Positions 33,164 through 41,132 of a stretch of DNA of 42,381 nt are shown here, piece by piece. The notes below the pieces were generated by a model. It was not told where the DNA came from. It saw nothing but the letters and a program-made list of their open reading frames with translations, and ran no database searches. The DNA is from an uncultured Pelagibacteraceae bacterium. Lineage in GTDB: Bacteria; Pseudomonadota; Alphaproteobacteria; Pelagibacterales; Pelagibacteraceae. The translations under genes and the position numbers were made by a program. The DNA is taken from NCBI GenBank assembly GCA_902619665.1, contig CACNFB010000008.1:1-42381 (forward strand), written 5' to 3'. Every line of letters begins with the position of its first letter. Position 1 is the first letter of the stretch.

Positions 33164-33850
33164 ATGCGTTCAAAGTACGAAATTTTTAAAATTGGAATAA
33201 AAGATGTTGCACCACATTTGTTATCAGTTTTTCCTTTTGGAATTATATTTGGTGCAATTGGTATTGAGTTAGGATTTAGTCCATTATTCACTTATGCAAC
33301 TTCTTTAATAATTTTTGGTGGCGCTTCACAAATAGTTTTTCTACAACTTTTATCTGGTGGCGCATCTTCATTAATTGCAATTACTTCTGTTGGGGTAATA
33401 AATTCAAGACATTTTTTATATGGCGCAGTATTATCTGAATATTTACAAAAATTATCTTTAATTAAAAAACTTTTAATTTCTTATCTTATAGTCGATCAAG
33501 GATTTGCTGTTTCAAATCAGTATTTTAAAAAAAATCCAACTGAGGAATTTAATCATTATCATCTAATTGGTTCTGGAATAATACTTTGGTTTATCTGGCA
33601 GGTTTCCACAATAATGGGAATTTACTTAGGATCTATTGTACCTGAGGAACTTGGATTAAAATTTGCAATTCCTCTAACGTTCATTGCAATAATTGTAAAT
33701 GAGTTAAGAAAATTTGATCATGTTTTAGTTATGCTAGTTTCAGGTTTAGCAGCTACTTTTTTTTATAATGCCCCCTTCAAAACCTACATAATAATTTCAC
33801 CACTCATTGGACTTTTTGCAGCGATGGTAATTAATAAATTAAAAAAATGA
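33164..33850 (+). CDS. azlC: AzlC family branched-chain amino-acid exporter subunit
   Basis: A 228-residue integral membrane protein. The N-terminal FPFGIIFGAIGIELGFSP segment near residues 23-40, the IFGGASQIVFLQLL segment near 50-63 and the VINSRHFLYGA motif near 78-88 are typical of AzlC, the large subunit of two-component exporters for branched-chain and similar amino acids. It overlaps azlD by four bases (ATGA). Substrate specificity is taken from the family, and AzlC-like proteins also export other hydrophobic amino acids. Confidence 0.9.
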   Translation: MRSKYEIFKIGIKDVAPHLLSVFPFGIIFGAIGIELGFSPLFTYATSLIIFGGASQIVFLQLLSGGASSLIAITSVGVINSRHFLYGAVLSEYLQKLSLIKKLLISYLIVDQGFAVSNQYFKKNPTEEFNHYHLIGSGIILWFIWQVSTIMGIYLGSIVPEELGLKFAIPLTFIAIIVNELRKFDHVLVMLVSGLAATFFYNAPFKTYIIISPLIGLFAAMVINKLKK

Positions 33851-34158
33851 CCTGGACTTCAATTTTTATAGCAGGAATTTTAACTTATTTTACAAGAATG
33901 AGCATGGTTACATTGATCAGAAAAGAAATGATAAGTGATAATTTAAGAAAGATTTTAAATTATGTACCATCTGTAGTTTTCCCTTCAATAATATTTCCTG
34001 GGGTTTTGTTAGATGATTTTGGAACTTTTGTTTCAATAAGTGATCCAAAAATATTTGGAGCTTTAACTGCATTAGTTATTGGGTTTTTTACAAGGAATGT
34101 TATTTTAACAATTGTATCAGGGCTATCTTCATATTGGATTGTTATTTTTGTTTTCTAA
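33847..34158 (+). CDS. azlD: AzlD family amino-acid exporter small subunit
   Basis: A 103-residue protein with about four membrane segments and the AzlD hallmark LNYVPSVVFPSIIFPG near residues 37-52. It works with AzlC as the small subunit. Start and azlC stop overlap (ATGA), and its own TAA overlaps the convergent GH13_18 stop at 34155-34158, so the two transcripts must read into each other unless terminated by another means. Confidence 0.88.
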   Translation: MTWTSIFIAGILTYFTRMSMVTLIRKEMISDNLRKILNYVPSVVFPSIIFPGVLLDDFGTFVSISDPKIFGALTALVIGFFTRNVILTIVSGLSSYWIVIFVF

Positions 34159-35888
34159 TTAGATAACCAAACTGTTTCAGAAGGTTTTAAGAATAATCTT
34201 TTACTAATAATGTTAACTTTTTTACTTAAAAGGTTTTTATATTTATCTTGATTGTTAGCTAATAAAACACTTTGTGATTTTGAAGACATATTTGTAATAC
34301 AAATAATAGTTTGTTTTTTATCTAAACTCACTCTTTTATATGCGAGTATTTTTTTACCAAAAGATAAATATCGCATAGATGCGTTTGGATGGAATGCTTT
34401 TTGTTTTTTTCTTATTTTTAATAAATTAGTAATATGATCGTAGTAAATTTTTTGTTTGGATTTTTTATCTTTTAAAAATCTATCTAATTTTGACTTGTTC
34501 CATTTATATCTGTTAAGGTCTCTTTTATTATTAGATATAACATATTTATATTCGTCATTAGCCTTGCCAAATATTGAATTAAAGTAAACAGCAGGCACAC
34601 CCTCAATCGAAAACATTATTGCATGCGCAGAGACATATCTTTCTAAAGAATATAATCCTTTTTTATCATAATCAGTATTTTTGAAAGCGTTAAAGAGAGT
34701 TATGTTGACTTCATAAACTTTTTTTTGTGTTTTATTTAATTTTCTATGAGAAAACTGAGCTCCATTTTTCCTCAATCTTTTAAATAAGTTGTTAAGGGTG
34801 TCCTTATTTAAATAACCTTCAGCAGGTCTCATTCCTATACCATCATGTGAAGCAATAAAATTAAAATAATTATTTTTTAAATTAGTTGACGGTAATTTTT
34901 TTATCCATTGATTTAATTTTGAACTATCTTCAAAAAGAAAAGCGTGAATTAGAAGGGGAGGTAATGTAAAATTATATATCCAGTTAGCTTCATCATTCTT
35001 CTTTCCAAAATAACTTAAGTTTTCTTTTTCAGGTAAATTAGTTTCAGTAATTAAATAAGGGGAATTTTGCAAAGAGTTACATATAATTCTTAGCAATTTA
35101 ATTATTTCATGTGTTTGCTTGAGATTTATACATTTAGTACCGCTTTCTTTCCATAAATAGGCAATCGCATCTAGTCTAAAAATTGAAACTCCGTGACATG
35201 CTAAGTTGATCATAATTTTAATAAAACGCATTAATACTTTTGGATTTTTAAAATTCAAATCTATTTGGTCAGAGCTAAATGTTCTCCATATAAAATCGGG
35301 TTTATTAAACACATGAATCTTTTTAAGTAATTTATTTTCCCGTGGCCTTACAACTTTAGAAACATCAAATTTATTATTTACTTTTAAAAAATAATCTTTT
35401 CCCGGTGATTTATTTTTTAAAAAATTTTTAAACCATAGTCCTTTTGACGAGGCATGATTTATAACAATATCAGCCATAATATTATTCTTTTTTGAAAAAT
35501 TATTTATATCTGCCCAAGAACCTAATTTACTATCAATTTTATAATGATCTTTAACAGCAAATCCGCTGTCACTACTTGAGGGATAAAATGGTAAAAAATG
35601 TATTGTATTAAAATACTTTGATAGTTTTTTATTGTAAAAATTCTTAAATGACTTAATTGAATTTATTTTTCCATTATCATAAACACTGTCACCATAGCAA
35701 ATCACAACCGTAGTCTCTTCGGATATTTTCAATTTTTTAGTTTTAGCTTTAAATATTTTTTTATTAGAAATTTTAATTAATTCAAAAATTTCATTAGAAA
35801 ATATTTTTAAGTCTTTTTTGTTAAAATTTTTACTATAAATATTTTTTAGCTTAGAATTTATTTGACTTTTTACTGTGCTTGATAACAT
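34155..35888 (-). CDS. GH13_18 sugar phosphorylase (sucrose/glucosylglycerate phosphorylase-like)
   Basis: A 577-residue alpha-amylase-superfamily enzyme. The retaining GH13 triad is visible: nucleophile Asp240 (FRLDAIAYLW), acid/base Glu282 (LITETNLP) and Asp349 (ASHDGIG). FLPFYPSSSDSGFAV near 98-112 and DIVINHAS at 140-147 resemble sucrose phosphorylase-type GH13_18 proteins, which split an alpha-glucoside with phosphate to give glucose 1-phosphate. Next to a glucosyl-3-phosphoglycerate synthase and its phosphatase, glucosylglycerate is the most likely substrate. Sucrose cannot be excluded. There is no signal peptide, so it acts in the cytoplasm. It is the last gene of the operon and shares one base with GpgS. 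Confidence 0.82.
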   Translation of the reverse strand: MLSSTVKSQINSKLKNIYSKNFNKKDLKIFSNEIFELIKISNKKIFKAKTKKLKISEETTVVICYGDSVYDNGKINSIKSFKNFYNKKLSKYFNTIHFLPFYPSSSDSGFAVKDHYKIDSKLGSWADINNFSKKNNIMADIVINHASSKGLWFKNFLKNKSPGKDYFLKVNNKFDVSKVVRPRENKLLKKIHVFNKPDFIWRTFSSDQIDLNFKNPKVLMRFIKIMINLACHGVSIFRLDAIAYLWKESGTKCINLKQTHEIIKLLRIICNSLQNSPYLITETNLPEKENLSYFGKKNDEANWIYNFTLPPLLIHAFLFEDSSKLNQWIKKLPSTNLKNNYFNFIASHDGIGMRPAEGYLNKDTLNNLFKRLRKNGAQFSHRKLNKTQKKVYEVNITLFNAFKNTDYDKKGLYSLERYVSAHAIMFSIEGVPAVYFNSIFGKANDEYKYVISNNKRDLNRYKWNKSKLDRFLKDKKSKQKIYYDHITNLLKIRKKQKAFHPNASMRYLSFGKKILAYKRVSLDKKQTIICITNMSSKSQSVLLANNQDKYKNLLSKKVNIISKRLFLKPSETVWLSN

Positions 35889-37108
35889 TAAACAAATTTT
35901 TTATTATCTTCACTAACAGCTTCATCTAATCTTACAAGAAAATCAGGTATTGCACTTTTCACTCGACTCCAAGTTGGAATAAATGGTGTATCCATTGGAT
36001 TAATGTAAAAAGCTTCTCCTGCTTTCATAATATTTACCGCGAATAATTCAACCGCTTCCTCTTCTTTGTGAGAATCGAATTTTAATCCATTCATTGAAGC
36101 ATCACTTCTATAAATATCAATTAAGTCTAATGCTGACCTGTAGTAGGTTGCTTTTAAAGATCTGAAAGTTTCTCTACTAAATGAGTTTCCTTGTGTTGCC
36201 AATTTTTTTATAAATGTTTTTATAATGTCAATTGACATTTTTGAAAGTCCTTTAGTTTCGTCATCGATAGAGAGATCCTGATGTTTATGATCATAAGCGT
36301 CTGCTAAATCAACTTGGCAAATATTATTCGGTGAAAAACTTCTTTGCATTTCTGATAAAATTCCAACTTCTATGCCCCAATCCGACGAAATTCTTAATTC
36401 TGGTAATACATTACGTCTGAATGAAAATTCACCTGCTAAAGGATATTTAAATGATTTCATAAAATTTAAATAGTCACTTTGGCCAATTGTTTTTTCTAAT
36501 GCTGTTAACAAAGGCCCAACCAAAAGTCTTGCCACTCTTCCATTCATTTTATTATTTGCAATTCTTGGATAATAACCTTTACAAAATTCAAAGTTAAACA
36601 ATGGGTTTACAACCGGATAAAATAATTTGGCCAACATTCTTCTGTCATAAGTTTTGATATCACAATCATGTAAAGCTACTGATCTAGCCGTATCTCGTGC
36701 TATGCACATTCCTATACAATACCAAACATTTCTACCTTTACCCATTTGGTTTGGTGCTAAATTTTTCTTCTTTAACTCACTATCTAATTTTTTAAGCTTA
36801 GGTCCATCGTTCCATAAAATTGTGAAAGGAACATTTATTTTTTTAAAAAATTTCCAAGCCTTTTTAGCTTGGCTTTCTGAAGCTTTATCTAACCCAATAA
36901 TGACGTGGTTTAAATATTTTGTCTTACTTATTTGATCTACTATATTAGGTAGCGCACCACCTTCTAATTCGGAGTATAAACATGGGAGAATTAATTCCAT
37001 TTTTCTTTCTTTAGAAAAATTTAATAAATCCTTTTCAATTTCAGTTGTAGATTTTGTTCCAAAATCATGAAGTGTTGAAACAATACCATTTTGAGAAAAA
37101 TCACCCAT
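35888..37108 (-). CDS. gpgS: Glucosyl-3-phosphoglycerate synthase (GT81)
   Basis: A 406-residue GT-A transferase that would move glucose from an NDP-glucose to 3-phosphoglycerate, the first step to glucosylglycerate. Visible features are LILPCLYSELEGGAL near residues 39-53, the donor/acceptor loop NQMGKGRNVWYCIG near 120-133, the metal-binding DCD motif at 148-150, and a DWGIEVGIL segment followed by a DAYDHKHQ segment with the C-terminal metal histidine. These fit GpgS, although mannosylglycerate-type or mixed donor use cannot be excluded. It lies 17 nt after the phosphatase gene and abuts the GH13_18 gene. Confidence 0.85.
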   Translation of the reverse strand: MGDFSQNGIVSTLHDFGTKSTTEIEKDLLNFSKERKMELILPCLYSELEGGALPNIVDQISKTKYLNHVIIGLDKASESQAKKAWKFFKKINVPFTILWNDGPKLKKLDSELKKKNLAPNQMGKGRNVWYCIGMCIARDTARSVALHDCDIKTYDRRMLAKLFYPVVNPLFNFEFCKGYYPRIANNKMNGRVARLLVGPLLTALEKTIGQSDYLNFMKSFKYPLAGEFSFRRNVLPELRISSDWGIEVGILSEMQRSFSPNNICQVDLADAYDHKHQDLSIDDETKGLSKMSIDIIKTFIKKLATQGNSFSRETFRSLKATYYRSALDLIDIYRSDASMNGLKFDSHKEEEAVELFAVNIMKAGEAFYINPMDTPFIPTWSRVKSAIPDFLVRLDEAVSEDNKKFV

Positions 37109-37125
37109 AACTTATTCTAGTAATA

Positions 37126-37926
37126 TTATTTTATTTTATCCAGAGCCAATTTGACTACCTCTTCCCATCCCTCTGGTGCAGGATTTTTTGAAACTAGACA
37201 ATTATCTATGTTTATTTTTTCCATTGTAAATTTATCATTAAAGACTAAACAAGGTATATCGCTATTTTTAAGCATATCTAGATCATTGAAATTATCTCCA
37301 ACTCCAATTGTAATTAGTTTCTCTTTGCTTATTTTCTCAAATATTTTAACAACATTTTTCATTGCTTTAGACTTGCTAATTTTATCACAAAGATTAATTA
37401 CTCTTCCTCCTTCTTGTAAGGAAAGACCAACATTATTTACAGATTTAAAAAGATCAGTTTTTTGAATTTTCGAACCTTCAAATATTAGAGGTATAGTATA
37501 TTCTCTATTTATTGCTAATTTGACCTTATCTTTTGGAAGTCCAAAAATTTCTGATTGTTTGTCACTTTTCAAATCTTTAATAAATTTACATTTTGATTTG
37601 TATTTACTAGAAATTTTGTTGTCAAATATTTCTATAATTTCATTAATCTCTCTACTTAAACTTATCTTTTCTGGAAAACTTGAATGAATTAAATTTAGAT
37701 TATAAATAGCAGCACCGTTTTCAACTATAAAAGGCAAATCTTCATCTAAGTCATTATTAAACTTTTCTATTTCAACTTTTGTTTTACTTGAATTTGGAAT
37801 TATAATAGTACCATCAGAGATTAAATCTTTAATATATTTTGAAATTTTATCGAATTTAAAAGTATCTCTATCTAGTAAACTTCCATCTAAATCTGTAAAT
37901 ATCAAAACTTTATTATTCGCATTCAT
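37126..37926 (-). CDS. gpgP: HAD-IIB phosphatase, glucosyl/mannosyl-3-phosphoglycerate phosphatase type
   Basis: A 266-residue HAD hydrolase: motif I FTDLDGSLLD with nucleophile Asp12 and Asp14, motif II PNSSKTKVE near residues 44-52, FIVENGAAIY near 66-75, and motif IV GVGDNFNDLDML at 208-219. This pattern belongs to the MpgP/GpgP (YedP) group, which dephosphorylates mannosyl- or glucosyl-3-phosphoglycerate. The adjacent synthase points to glucosyl-3-phosphoglycerate. It shares one base with the ATP-grasp gene upstream, so synthase, phosphatase and ATP-grasp protein are co-transcribed. Confidence 0.85.
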   Translation of the reverse strand: MNANNKVLIFTDLDGSLLDRDTFKFDKISKYIKDLISDGTIIIPNSSKTKVEIEKFNNDLDEDLPFIVENGAAIYNLNLIHSSFPEKISLSREINEIIEIFDNKISSKYKSKCKFIKDLKSDKQSEIFGLPKDKVKLAINREYTIPLIFEGSKIQKTDLFKSVNNVGLSLQEGGRVINLCDKISKSKAMKNVVKIFEKISKEKLITIGVGDNFNDLDMLKNSDIPCLVFNDKFTMEKINIDNCLVSKNPAPEGWEEVVKLALDKIK

Positions 37927-39371
37927 TAAATATCAACAACGAGCGTATCTTTAGAACCACCACCTCGAGAACTATTTACTATAGTGCTTCCTTTTCTTAG
38001 AGCAACACGCGTTAAGCCACCCATTGTTACATAGGTTTCTTTTCCAGATAATATAAAAGGTCTTAAATCTTGGTGTCGTGGTTCAAACAAATCACCTTGA
38101 AGAGTGGGAGTTGTAGATAGTACTTCTAATGGCTGGGCAATATAATTTCTTGGGTTGTCTTTAATTCTTTTTTGAAATATTTCTCTTTCTTTTATTTTAG
38201 CTTTAGGTCCAATCATAATACCATACCCACCAGATCCATCTGCTGGTTTCACAACCATTTTTCCAATATTTTCAATTACATGATCTCTTTGCAGTTTTTC
38301 AAAACATCTAAATGTTTCAACTTGTTTAAGTTTTGGCTCTTCTCCTAGATAGTATTTTATTATTTCTGGTACATAAGAATAAATTAATTTATCATCTGCA
38401 AAACCGGTTCCAGGGGAATTTAATATTGCAACATTTCCTTTTCTGTAAGCTTTAAATAAACCAGGGACACCTATTAAGGATCCTTTAAAAAAAGATTTTG
38501 GATCTAAATAGGTATCATTGAGTCTTCTATAAATACAATCAACCCTAATTCCACCACCTATCGTTTTCATAAAAACTTTATCATTTTCAACATAAAGATC
38601 TTTTCCTTCAACAAGAGCCACTCCCATTTGTTGAGCTAAAAATGAATGCTCAAAGTATGCAGAGTTATAAATCCCAGGTGTTAAAACAACCATATGAGGA
38701 TTTTTTGTTTGGTAAGGTATTGCATCATGCATGCAATGATAAAGTCTATTACAATAGTGACCAATTGGAGAAACTCTATATCTTGTAAATATTTGAGGAA
38801 ACACCTGACTCATCACCATTCTGTTTTCAAGCATATAAGATACACCAGATGGAACTTGTAAATTGTCTTCAAGAACTAAAAAATCGCCATTGATATTTCT
38901 TATTAAATCAATTCCAGAGATATGAGACCAAATTTTCCTTTTAGGACTAAAGCCCTCACATTGTTTTAAATAATTTTTTGATTTAAATACTATATCTTCT
39001 GGAATGATTTTATCCTTAAATATTCTTTTTTTGTTATATACATCATCAATGAATAAATTTAATGCCTTTGATCTTTGAATTAATCCTTTTTTAACCTTGT
39101 TCCATTTTGTTTTTAAAACAATTCTAGGGATAATATCTAAAGGCCATTTTTTTTCTTCAGCAGCTTTTTTATCAGCAGAGTAAACTTTAAAATTTATTCC
39201 TCTAGAGTCTATAGTGCTCATACAGTTTCTATCTATTTCTTGAAGTTTTTTCTTACCGTGTCTATCTAAAATATTTGAAATAATTTTAGCTTCTTTTCTT
39301 AACTTTCTTTCAGGCGTTAAGTACTCATCATAAGATGATTTAGCATCATAGTTTTTCCAAAGACTAGTCAT
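37926..39371 (-). CDS. Circularly permuted ATP-grasp family protein (CP_ATPgrasp type)
   Basis: A 481-residue member of the DUF404/DUF407 circularly permuted ATP-grasp family. FLVLEDNLQVPSGVSYMLEN at residues 164-183 is the displaced Mg/ATP-binding part, VVKPADGSGGYG at 373-384 is the phosphate-binding loop, and EPRHQDLRPF near 430-439 and GGLTRVAL near 451-458 are family hallmarks. ATP-grasp enzymes form amide or ester bonds through acyl phosphates. This family has no established substrate, but is often encoded with Anbu, alpha-E and transglutaminase-like proteins. Here it heads the glucosylglycerate operon and faces Anbu across a 118-bp divergent promoter region. A ligase acting on a small peptide or metabolite is a family-based prediction. 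Confidence 0.88.
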   Translation of the reverse strand: MTSLWKNYDAKSSYDEYLTPERKLRKEAKIISNILDRHGKKKLQEIDRNCMSTIDSRGINFKVYSADKKAAEEKKWPLDIIPRIVLKTKWNKVKKGLIQRSKALNLFIDDVYNKKRIFKDKIIPEDIVFKSKNYLKQCEGFSPKRKIWSHISGIDLIRNINGDFLVLEDNLQVPSGVSYMLENRMVMSQVFPQIFTRYRVSPIGHYCNRLYHCMHDAIPYQTKNPHMVVLTPGIYNSAYFEHSFLAQQMGVALVEGKDLYVENDKVFMKTIGGGIRVDCIYRRLNDTYLDPKSFFKGSLIGVPGLFKAYRKGNVAILNSPGTGFADDKLIYSYVPEIIKYYLGEEPKLKQVETFRCFEKLQRDHVIENIGKMVVKPADGSGGYGIMIGPKAKIKEREIFQKRIKDNPRNYIAQPLEVLSTTPTLQGDLFEPRHQDLRPFILSGKETYVTMGGLTRVALRKGSTIVNSSRGGGSKDTLVVDI

Positions 39372-39416
39372 TTAACATATTATTATAAATATTCTTTTAA
39401 TTATAAGTGCAAATTA

Positions 39417-39472
39417 TATATACCTGTTATGAGTTTTTGGGGTATATATATATGTCGAGGTATATATATAAG
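39417..39472. repeat. Three TATATACC/GGTATATA motifs in the ATP-grasp/Anbu divergent promoter
   Basis: The gap 39372-39489 carries TATATACC (39417-39424), and two direct GGTATATATATA copies starting at 39441 and 39459, 18 bp apart. The first copy is inverted relative to the other two, so 39417-39450 also forms a dyad. This could be a set of operator sites or overlapping divergent -10 elements controlling both the ATP-grasp/gpg operon and the Anbu gene. No regulator is encoded nearby. Simple TA-repeat slippage is the alternative, but the conserved GG flank argues for more than a microsatellite. Confidence 0.5.
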
Positions 39473-39489
39473 TAAATATCTAAATAACA

Positions 39490-40215
39490 ATGACATATTG
39501 TATCGGTATAAAATCTAAAGATGGAATTGTTGTAGCTTCAGATTCTAGAACTAATGCTGGACTAGATAATGTTAATATCTACTCAAAAATGTTTACATAT
39601 GATGTTGGTGATCGAACTGTTCTAATTGTCACTTCAGGTAATTTAGGAACTTCTCAAGCAGTTTATAAATCAATAGAAAAAGATCTTGAAGACAATTCTG
39701 GAAAAAAAAATTTAAACACTTGTGAAGATTTTGATCAGGTTGCTAAATATATAGGTGCTTTAAATATAAAACATTCATCCCCTAAAGGTATGAACACTGA
39801 TACCGTTTTATTAGGTTCAACCTTTATTGTTGGCGGTCAAATTAAAGGAAAACCAATGGAACTTTTTTTAATTTATCCCCAAGGCAATTATATAAAACCT
39901 GCTGACAGCAAACCATATTTGGTTATTGGAGAAGTTAAATATGGTAAACCAATTTTAGATAGAGTTATCACTCCTGATGTATCTATAGGTGATGCTTCAA
40001 GATGTGCATTAATATCGATGGACTCTACATTAAAGAGTGACTTAACAGTAGGCCCGCCCATAGACTTCGTAGTTTATAAAAAAGATCAATATAAAATCGC
40101 ATCACAGAAATGTTTAAACCTTAACGATCAAGAATTTTCAAAGGTATCTAAGGAATGGTCAGAGGGAATATTTAAAATATTTGACTCATTTCCAAGATTT
40201 GATTGGGAAAAATAA
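39490..40215 (+). CDS. Anbu (ancestral beta-subunit) proteasome-like peptidase
   Basis: A 241-residue Ntn-hydrolase closely matching Anbu/BPH peptidases. The nucleophile would be Thr2 exposed after Met removal (MTYCIGIKSK), with Asp18 in VASDSRTNAG and Lys33 in YSKMF as the partner residues, and a GDASRCALISMDS segment near residues 174-186 corresponding to the conserved C-terminal active-site region. Anbu forms open helical or ring assemblies, and its physiological substrate is unknown. It is usually encoded with a circularly permuted ATP-grasp, an alpha-E protein and a transglutaminase. Only the ATP-grasp partner is here, divergently oriented. No Shine-Dalgarno precedes the ATG. Confidence 0.92.
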   Translation: MTYCIGIKSKDGIVVASDSRTNAGLDNVNIYSKMFTYDVGDRTVLIVTSGNLGTSQAVYKSIEKDLEDNSGKKNLNTCEDFDQVAKYIGALNIKHSSPKGMNTDTVLLGSTFIVGGQIKGKPMELFLIYPQGNYIKPADSKPYLVIGEVKYGKPILDRVITPDVSIGDASRCALISMDSTLKSDLTVGPPIDFVVYKKDQYKIASQKCLNLNDQEFSKVSKEWSEGIFKIFDSFPRFDWEK

Positions 40216-40281
40216 AAAAATTTACTTATTGATCTTGTTCAATTATAAATATTAGCATAAACACTCATGAAAATAACTCAT

Positions 40282-40367
40282 GCCCTCGTGGTGAAATTGG
40301 TAGACACAAAGGACTTAAAATCCTTGCCCTTTTGGGAGTGCCAGTTCGAGTCTGGCCGAGGGCACCA
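40282..40367 (+). tRNA. tRNA-Leu (UAA), CCA encoded
   Basis: A complete type II tRNA folds from this stretch. Acceptor GCCCTCG (40282-40288) pairs with CGAGGGC (40357-40363). The anticodon stem AAGGA/TCCTT encloses the loop CTTAAAA with anticodon TAA at 40316-40318. A long variable arm (CCC/GGG) follows, then a T-arm GCCAG-TTCGAGT-CTGGC. Discriminator A and CCA are encoded at 40364-40367. The long variable arm and UAA anticodon identify leucine. It is followed after only 3 nt by the nadK start codon, implying a joint transcript. Confidence 0.97.
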
Positions 40368-40370
40368 CTA

Positions 40371-41132
40371 ATGAAAAAGATAATTTCTGACTCGAATACA
40401 AAATCTTTAAAAATAAAATCCTATTTAGAAAAAAAATTAAAAAACAAGAAATTAAAATCAAATGTATTTATTGTTATAGGTGGCGATGGTTTTATGCTTA
40501 AAATTTTAAAAAAATATAAAAAAAGCTCCAGAATATATTATGGAATAAATTCTGGTAACTATGGTTTTTTGATGAATAAATTTTCCACTAACAAAACAAT
40601 TAAGAATTTGTTTAAGTCTAGAATGATATCAATTTCACCTTTAGAAATGAAAGTTATTAATAAAAAAGGAGTCTCAAAAAAAATTCTTGCTATCAATGAG
40701 GTATCTATACTAAGACAAAGTAGACAAACTGCATCACTTCAGGTTACTTCAGGAAAAAAATATTTAATTAAGAAATTAATTTCTGATGGAATTTTAGTTT
40801 CAACACCAGCAGGTAGCACTGCATATAATTTGTCTGTTAATGGTCCAATATTAAGCCTCAATTCAAAAAAACTCTCTGTTTCACCAATTAGCGCATTTAG
40901 ACCCAGAAGATGGAAGGGTAAGATAATTAATGATAGCTCTGTTGTAAAAATCAAAAATTTGAATCCCATCAAAAGACCTATAAGTGCTGTTGCTGATAAT
41001 ATAGAGATAAGAAATGCTAAACAAATTGTTATTAGAACAAACAAAAAAATAAAATTCAATCTATTATATGATCCAAATAGAAGTCTTCAAAAAAAAATTA
41101 AAATTGAGCAAACAAAAAGAGAGATAAATTAA
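40371..41132 (+). CDS. nadK: NAD kinase
   Basis: Phosphorylates NAD+ to NADP+. The 253-residue protein starts at the ATG at 40371 (MKKIISDSNTKS). The in-frame opening at 40332 lies inside the tRNA and is rejected. It has the GGDG motif at residues 37-40 with catalytic Asp39, a GINSGNYGFLMN segment near 58-69, the NEVSILR segment near 105-111, and ISDGILVSTPAGSTAYNLSVNGPIL around 140-165 (the diphosphate-binding loop). Its messenger has essentially no leader of its own after tRNA processing. It is followed by a short terminator-like hairpin. Confidence 0.94.
   Translation: MKKIISDSNTKSLKIKSYLEKKLKNKKLKSNVFIVIGGDGFMLKILKKYKKSSRIYYGINSGNYGFLMNKFSTNKTIKNLFKSRMISISPLEMKVINKKGVSKKILAINEVSILRQSRQTASLQVTSGKKYLIKKLISDGILVSTPAGSTAYNLSVNGPILSLNSKKLSVSPISAFRPRRWKGKIINDSSVVKIKNLNPIKRPISAVADNIEIRNAKQIVIRTNKKIKFNLLYDPNRSLQKKIKIEQTKREIN

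Follow-up and report, generated by a model that had tools for sequence, protein, structure and literature searches.

The four-gene Anbu system is related to the proteasome, and glucosylglycerate is a nitrogen-free salt-protectant. In this study, we describe a locus in which a two-gene form of the first, an Anbu peptidase and a circularly permuted ATP-grasp protein, lies directly beside a gene set for the second. The locus is part of the window, that is, the whole stretch of DNA analysed, which is an entire contig of 42,381 bp from the assembly G000 (979 kb, 87% complete). The host is a member of SAR11 (Pelagibacteraceae), and the Anbu protein of the window has 100% the same sequence as the Anbu of the single cell AG-918-E06 (Pelagibacteraceae). 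On balance, though without great confidence, we read the locus as two separate accessory modules, a reduced Anbu system and a glucosylglycerate cycle, which stand side by side at common hotspots.

Anbu systems and glucosylglycerate operons are each already known. The closest described relative of the first module is the four-gene Anbu operon (PMC5666114, PMC6376114), whose genes are co-directional and include alpha-E and a transglutaminase in addition to Anbu and the ATP-grasp. The catalytic residues Thr1, Asp17, and Lys32(33) of Anbu are named in PMC6376114. The same source reports that amidase activity was undetected for the three Anbu proteins tried and that the ATP-grasp of Yersinia released phosphate from ATP. 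In marine metagenomes, these domains correlate with urea metabolism (PMC3597751). The closest relatives of the second module combine gpgS and gpgP with a GH13_18 phosphorylase (PMC7178133), and a (T/S)ETN motif together with a loop-A Glu are the published signatures of glucosylglycerate phosphorylases (PMC7178133). Glucosylglycerate is described as an alternative osmolyte of nitrogen-limited cyanobacteria, and its synthesis has been reported in offshore SAR11 genera (PMC12636525). The capability found here was therefore reported for the group before; the main text of that paper does not mention 'Anbu', 'proteasome', or 'ATP-grasp'. No paper in which 'Anbu' and 'SAR11' each occur as a whole word was found in the open-access literature, a search that leaves most subscription journals outside. 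What appears to be new is the two-gene, alpha-E-less, divergent, and mobile pair in SAR11.

The first-pass annotation had drawn five genes, a minus-strand run and an Anbu gene facing it across 118 bp, and all five were found where it placed them. The Anbu peptidase, a protein of the proteasome fold, is encoded on the plus strand at 39490-40215 (PDB 5loy, E 1.3e-66). Its best five PDB sequences, at E 1.3e-66 to 1e-49, comprise three named Anbu and two named 'Peptidase'; the sixth match, a proteasome beta subunit, reached only E 1.3e-05. The second proteasome-fold match in the window genome, at G000:C7, is HslV-sized. The first gene of the minus-strand run, at 37926-39371, encodes a CP_ATPgrasp_2 protein (circularly permuted ATP-grasp, type 2; PF14403, E 1.6e-153; PDB 3n6x, E 1.9e-135). 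The divergent promoter region between the two genes occupies 39372-39489, which is 118 bp. The window pair shares with the four-gene operon (PMC5666114, PMC6376114) the ATP-grasp family and the Anbu Thr1/Asp17/Lys32(33) residues. It differs in having two genes, divergent rather than co-directional, in lacking alpha-E and transglutaminase in the assembly, and in having a promoter element of its own.

The reduced state of the Anbu system, already suspected from the sequence, was supported. Across the whole assembly G000, there were no matches to alpha-E and none to Transglut_core, and the ATP-grasp of this family is present in a single copy; no second set of these genes lies elsewhere in the assembly. 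Neither alpha-E nor Transglut_core was found in the near-complete pair-bearing relatives G013 (one contig) and G017 (five contigs), both 99% complete. In a sample of 147 genomes of the order, the ATP-grasp occurs in 88, Anbu in 52, and alpha-E in 37. Ninety-four of these genomes belong to the window's family (f1) and 53 to its sister family (f2). Wherever f1 genomes carry Anbu and ATP-grasp, the two form a divergent pair (52/52) with a gap of 75-118 bp. Alpha-E was found in one f1 genome (G005) and is absent from 51 of the 52 pair-bearing genomes. The 20 Transglut_core matches in f1 all lie in frames of 620-655 amino acids (aa), none beside the pair; such a protein is present, away from the pair, in 13 pair-bearing genomes including G005. 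The composition in f2 is the complementary one. There, alpha-E occurs in 36 of the 53 genomes and directly adjoins the ATP-grasp in 35 of the 36, and a small transglutaminase (226-284-aa frames) occurs in 36 genomes, beside alpha-E in 35. These adjacencies were taken from match coordinates, and gene order itself was read at four loci. Proteasome-fold matches never exceed one per f2 genome, and the tabulated ones have the size of HslV (one is partial), so no Anbu was seen; the exception is G035, whose proteasome-fold match is weak (E 4.8e-8).

Of the 103 ATP-grasp genomes in the class sample (those with handles up to G418), 98 carry alpha-E, and G411 has the four Anbu-operon genes in a row. Among the five genomes without an alpha-E match, its absence was confirmed for G000 and G403; G005 does have alpha-E, apparently outside that class sample, G292 has its ATP-grasp match at a contig end, and G383 has a weak ATP-grasp match only. 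G403, from another order, has the same divergent pair without alpha-E. Within the genomes sampled, the loss of alpha-E is a mark of the two-gene form.

G005 is the alpha-E-bearing SAR11 form. It shares the divergent layout of Anbu and ATP-grasp with the window, but alpha-E is kept behind the ATP-grasp gene, and its proteins are 61-62% identical to those of the window. On a long branch, its ATP-grasp takes a position immediately outside those of the two-gene form, and its layout may resemble the parental arrangement. It is doubtful that G005 is a vertically inherited intermediate, because it falls inside genus g1 on the genome tree, yet its pair is deep. This tree was built from 11 hslV-region proteins of 88 of the 94 f1 genomes (G056, G072, G112, G122, G009, and G054 were omitted, having no HslV match to anchor); long-branch warnings were obtained for it and likewise for further trees, including that of the ATP-grasp. 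Residues of the ATP-grasp that might have changed after the loss of alpha-E were too few to interpret: G005 carries the alpha-E-type residue at just 3 of 13 candidate positions (60, 144, and 157) and differs from the two-gene form at 6 of the 13.

Both genes of the pair are maintained. The catalytic residues of Anbu are intact in the window as Thr2 (mature Thr1), Asp18 (17), and Lys33 (32), and the Thr/Asp/Lys triad is present in 134 of 134 aligned sequences. In the ATP-grasp alignment (n=62 sequences), 113 columns are invariant. The ratio of nonsynonymous to synonymous substitution (dN/dS), determined for 12 genome pairs, was 0.007-0.055 for Anbu and 0.008-0.081 for the ATP-grasp; hence, both are under strong purifying selection.

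Alignment of 51 intergenic regions revealed a conserved 28-bp promoter element of the approximate form CAAWTGc-N10-ATAtCwGnTATG. The window version lies at 39404-39431 (plus strand; coordinate counted from the intergenic alignment), with the right half, ATATACCTGTTATG, retained and the left half altered. When 2.4 Mb were scanned with a weight matrix, 129 hits were obtained, of which 122 were labelled as lying between ATP-grasp and Anbu. Six of the remaining seven are in the same place and differently labelled, because the Anbu frame was longer or a small frame had been called at that position; one is in G121. With a strict pattern, the 147 genomes yielded 40 matches in 39 genomes (39 at the pair promoter and one in G121) and 0 control hits, although this pattern misses 13 of the 52 pair-bearing genomes, including the window genome (0 hits). 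The element as the mark of a wider regulon was rejected on the strict pattern, as 39 of its 40 matches are at the pair promoter. At gathering thresholds, none of the known RNA elements was found in the promoter; only tRNA was found. At 39440-39472, the window carries two copies of a GGTATATATATA run, which was unseen in the other aligned lineages.

Behind the ATP-grasp gene, the minus-strand run continues with three genes of the glucosylglycerate module. A HAD-IIB phosphatase, probably the glucosyl-3-phosphoglycerate phosphatase GpgP, is encoded at 37126-37926 (minus strand); it matched PRK00192.1-5 below the cut-off (E 1.5e-48), TIGR01486 with 155.3 bits against a cut-off of 164.75, and PDB 1xvi with E 2.3e-16. 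A phosphatase of the MPGP/GpgP type adjoins GpgS on the same strand in 34 of the 34 loci in which GpgP was read. The predicted glucosyl-3-phosphoglycerate synthase GpgS is encoded at 35888-37108 (minus strand). It matched NF040724 with E 2.3e-108 and 362.6 bits, under the family's 700-bit cut-off; membership in the GpgS family, which we take to be the one labelled GT81, is clear, and the exact substrate is putative. The last gene, at 34155-35888 (minus strand), encodes a GH13_18 phosphorylase (PF00128), probably a glucosylglycerate phosphorylase. Its top PDB sequences are sucrose and glucosylglycerol phosphorylases, and it has both signature motifs of the glucosylglycerate enzymes. TETN is present in all 20 GH13 copies examined, and the loop-A 'YE' in 19 of the 20, including that of the window. 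The ATP-grasp and phosphatase genes overlap by 1 bp, the phosphatase and GpgS genes are 17 bp apart, and the GpgS and GH13 genes overlap by 1 bp. Over the compared genome pairs, the phosphatase evolves faster than GpgS (dN/dS 0.07-0.23 vs 0.003-0.065). Compared with the described gpgS/gpgP and GH13_18 systems (PMC7178133), the gene set and signature motifs are the same; the difference is that in 10 of the 35 GpgS genomes here, an additional ATP-grasp gene comes first.

The ATP-grasp of the window has a history different from that of its neighbours. DNA identity between the window and G017 is 92-99.7% over 33800-37100 and then drops inside gpgP; further on, values of 68-77% (38000-39500) and 79-82% (Anbu) were obtained. 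At the protein level, GpgS is 98%, Anbu 90%, and the ATP-grasp about 71% (70.5%) identical. The window ATP-grasp groups with that of G403 (support 97; 77.5% identical), and forcing it into its own lineage was rejected by 117 log units (approximately unbiased, AU, test, p 1.7e-17). The ATP-grasp, and it alone, was exchanged for a foreign version in the window lineage. That the donor was G403-like is less sure, since forcing all Pelagibacteraceae copies except G005 together was only marginally rejected (p 0.044). By identity, Anbu was not swapped along with it (90% to G017 vs 59% to G403), although joining the window Anbu to that of G403 was not formally rejected (p 0.075). Partner exchange over such a distance argues against a finely fitted complex of ATP-grasp and Anbu, and pull-downs found no such complex (PMC6376114). 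A swap limited to the ATP-grasp suggests that what connects the two proteins is a small substrate common to both, not a tight complex.

The pair is also mobile. It occupies at least four kinds of site: the interval from GGCT to tRNA-Leu/NAD kinase, a zinc-ABC cluster, carAB, and a further site common to 13 genomes, with neighbour genes named by eye from the sequences. Comparison of relatives showed a given site both occupied by the pair and free of it (G128/L136, G082/G048, and G121/G144). In the window, the right border of the variable island is the tRNA-Leu(taa) at 40282-40367 (plus strand), downstream of Anbu; tRNA-Leu directly adjoins the NAD kinase gene in all 15 of the scanned loci that hold NAD kinase. 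On the genome tree, 25 changes are needed for the presence of Anbu and 20 for that of GpgS. The pair has been gained and lost often, as a unit.

GpgS was found in 35 of the 147 order genomes. Within f1, 27 genomes carry both the pair and GpgS, 25 the pair only, 8 GpgS only, and 34 neither; G138 was scored as without GpgS though its contig ends inside the neighbouring GH13 gene, GpgS of G126 is partial, and the ATP-grasp genes of G107 and G146 are cut by contig ends. In the 27 genomes with both modules, gpgP lies directly behind the ATP-grasp gene in 10 and within about 6.3 kb, otherwise ordered or oriented, in 4; on the stretches read, the modules are not near each other in 13, 12 of which have them on different contigs. 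The linkage is thus neither unique to the window genome nor due to chance, as the divergent pair is present in 52 of 147 genomes and gpgP directly behind the ATP-grasp in 10. Several layouts were seen among the named loci, 67 of 80 of which hold both ATP-grasp and gpgP; these loci are the best 80 of 121 by closeness to the window Anbu, so linked arrangements are over-represented. Among the genomes with both modules, linkage requires 7 tree changes and gpgP adjacency 6; hence, linkage arose or broke repeatedly. Many GpgS operons lie inside the island between GGCT and tRNA-Leu irrespective of the presence of the pair there, so a shared hotspot explains much of the linkage. The adjacency probably reflects the use of one accessory-gene hotspot by both modules, not shared chemistry.

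Two kinds of transporter genes were seen near these modules. A 536-aa transporter-like gene (by eye) lies between gpgP and the ATP-grasp gene in L140, L141, L147-L149, L152, and L154, and beside the ATP-grasp gene alone in L157. A four-gene ABC transporter (a sugar importer by eye) adjoins the glucosylglycerate genes in 10 loci (L048, L049, L051, L099, L101, L102, L105, L106, L107, and L111), and a similar set lies near gpgP in G254.

Several observations weigh against the reading of two separate modules. The raw association of pair and GpgS is positive (Fisher p 0.0013, without correction for descent). In the tree-controlled comparison of 22 independent pairs, GpgS went in the same direction in 7.8 and in the opposite direction in 2.9; the lean is the same, and the sign test was not significant (median p 0.23, range 0.02-0.75). 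A true separation of the modules was measurable only in G013, at about 330 kb, the other 12 genomes having them on different contigs. Both genes were read in 26 genomes, and in 10 of these gpgP abuts the ATP-grasp gene on the same strand (-1 to 42 bp). Three different sites are involved, namely the island, the zinc-ABC site, and the c123 site of G132; such recurrence is not particularly expected if hotspots are all that is at work. In f10, a distant family, an ATP-grasp/alpha-E/transglutaminase operon lies about 6-11 kb from gpgP-gpgS-GH13 on one contig in four genomes matching both (L208-L211, from G465, G154, G385, and G287), with no Anbu between; the GpgS match of G287 (L122, G287:C14:29272-30483) holds one in-frame TAA and may be broken or misassembled.

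A promoter scar in G121 points in the same direction. G144 and G074 have the order gpgS-gpgP-ATP-grasp/Anbu-c39, whereas at the same site, G121 has gpgS-gpgP-c39 with no ATP-grasp or Anbu frame left between. The 28-bp element of the pair is found there before gpgP, its midpoint 48 bp upstream, with similar flanks, and a further pair is present in G121 at the carAB site. In the simplest reading of this one case, the pair was deleted and the ATP-grasp promoter was retained before gpgP-gpgS. The idea that a separate glucosylglycerate operon generally shares the element was rejected, as only G121 was above background among 34 gpgP upstream regions.

If the two modules are separate, their workings may be outlined from family chemistry. 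The genes of the ATP-grasp ligase and of the N-terminal-threonine hydrolase Anbu are divergent and share one short promoter region. Using ATP, the ligase would activate a carboxylate for amide formation; amide cleavage would be the part of Anbu, an Ntn hydrolase. In the second module, GpgS and GpgP would make glucosylglycerate, and the GH13_18 enzyme would split the solute to glucose-1-phosphate and glycerate. Both modules are often gained and lost and use the same hotspots, chiefly that from GGCT to tRNA-Leu/NAD kinase. In the window lineage, gpgP-gpgS-GH13 stand directly behind the ATP-grasp gene and are probably co-transcribed with it; the solute genes may thus be expressed with the pair, perhaps on nitrogen limitation.

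It is possible, although rather unlikely, that the linkage itself was selected, both modules serving the same nitrogen-poor condition and the pair promoter being a switch repeatedly shared by the solute genes. Anbu is reported to be high on nitrogen starvation (PMC6376114; PMC5666114). In Pseudomonas putida, PP_2685 (proteasome beta) and PP_2688 (ATP-grasp) are up on nitrate versus ammonium (log2 4.4 and 4.0; PMC8050072), and the NtrC regulon of Burkholderia includes ATP-grasp/alpha-E/transglutaminase genes, which are lowered in an ntrC mutant (PMC5491218). The description of glucosylglycerate as an osmolyte of nitrogen limitation (PMC12636525), the recurring gpgP adjacency, and the scar of G121 fit the same explanation. 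By analogy with these organisms, a common nitrogen-stress response of the pair and the glucosylglycerate genes in SAR11 is plausible. However, no expression data were found for SAR11, and operon expression is stated to be unchanged across various other conditions (PMC5666114). The element is absent from 19 of the 20 gpgP upstream regions in which the pair is far away or absent, and the modules are not near each other in 13 of the 27 genomes with both. Where the solute genes follow Anbu or run on the other strand, the ATP-grasp promoter is not shared by them in this manner.

The proposal of the first-pass annotation, with a glucosylglycerate-linked compound as the substrate of the pair, was not supported, and action on glucosylglycerate itself is improbable. 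In that case the ligase would convert the carboxylate of the solute into an amide, such as glucosylglyceramide or an amino-acid conjugate, and Anbu would cleave it. The abutting gpgP and ATP-grasp genes of 10 genomes suit this proposal, and there is a chemical precedent in Rhodothermus marinus, in which mannosylglyceramide occurs alongside mannosylglycerate and is favoured at raised NaCl (PMC1224877). However, 25 of the 52 pair-bearing genomes have no GpgS match, which argues against glucosylglycerate as a general substrate, and 8 of the 35 GpgS genomes have no pair. The association weakens from p 0.0013 to a median of 0.23 once the tree is controlled for, and the island explains much of the linkage. 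Of 337 class genomes, 128 have an ATP-grasp of this family and 11 a GpgS of the window type. Moreover, the ATP-grasp of the window was exchanged while its GpgS stayed 98% identical to that of G017. A more specific form, in which the pair is a minimal make-and-break amide cycle that reversibly masks the carboxylate of glucosylglycerate in window-like lineages, is still harder to credit; if it were true, the masking would adjust the osmolyte pool in its charge or its content of nitrogen.

The pair as a decaying remnant of the four-gene operon, two of whose partners are lost, is very improbable, being contradicted by the selection figures as well as by the catalytic residues intact in every aligned sequence, the conserved promoter element, and the repeated gain or loss. 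Nor is there any real likelihood that alpha-E and the transglutaminase lie in the missing 13% of an assembly that is just 87% complete, as alpha-E is absent from 51 of 52 pair-bearing genomes and the near-complete G013 and G017 also lack Transglut_core.

At the borders of the locus, azlD (33847-34158) is convergent with the GH13 gene, with a 4-bp overlap. The NAD kinase frame (40332-41132) has its first TTG inside the tRNA-Leu, and its true start is probably more downstream. An 895-aa gene (PEP carboxylase by eye) lies between Anbu and tRNA-Leu in the close relatives L039 and L040; it is absent at 40216-40281 of the window.

In the literature on it, as far as covered, the Anbu operon has no established substrate. 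The SAR11 relatives have divided this operon, with ATP-grasp and Anbu in one family and ATP-grasp, alpha-E, and transglutaminase in the other. This natural dissection suggests that the ATP-grasp and Anbu can work without the other two and leaves only two proteins for biochemistry to explain; it also provides relatives for comparison that either have or lack the pair at one site. SAR11 bacteria rank among the most numerous cells of the ocean; hence, what the pair acts on could be of consequence for nitrogen or osmolyte chemistry in the sea.

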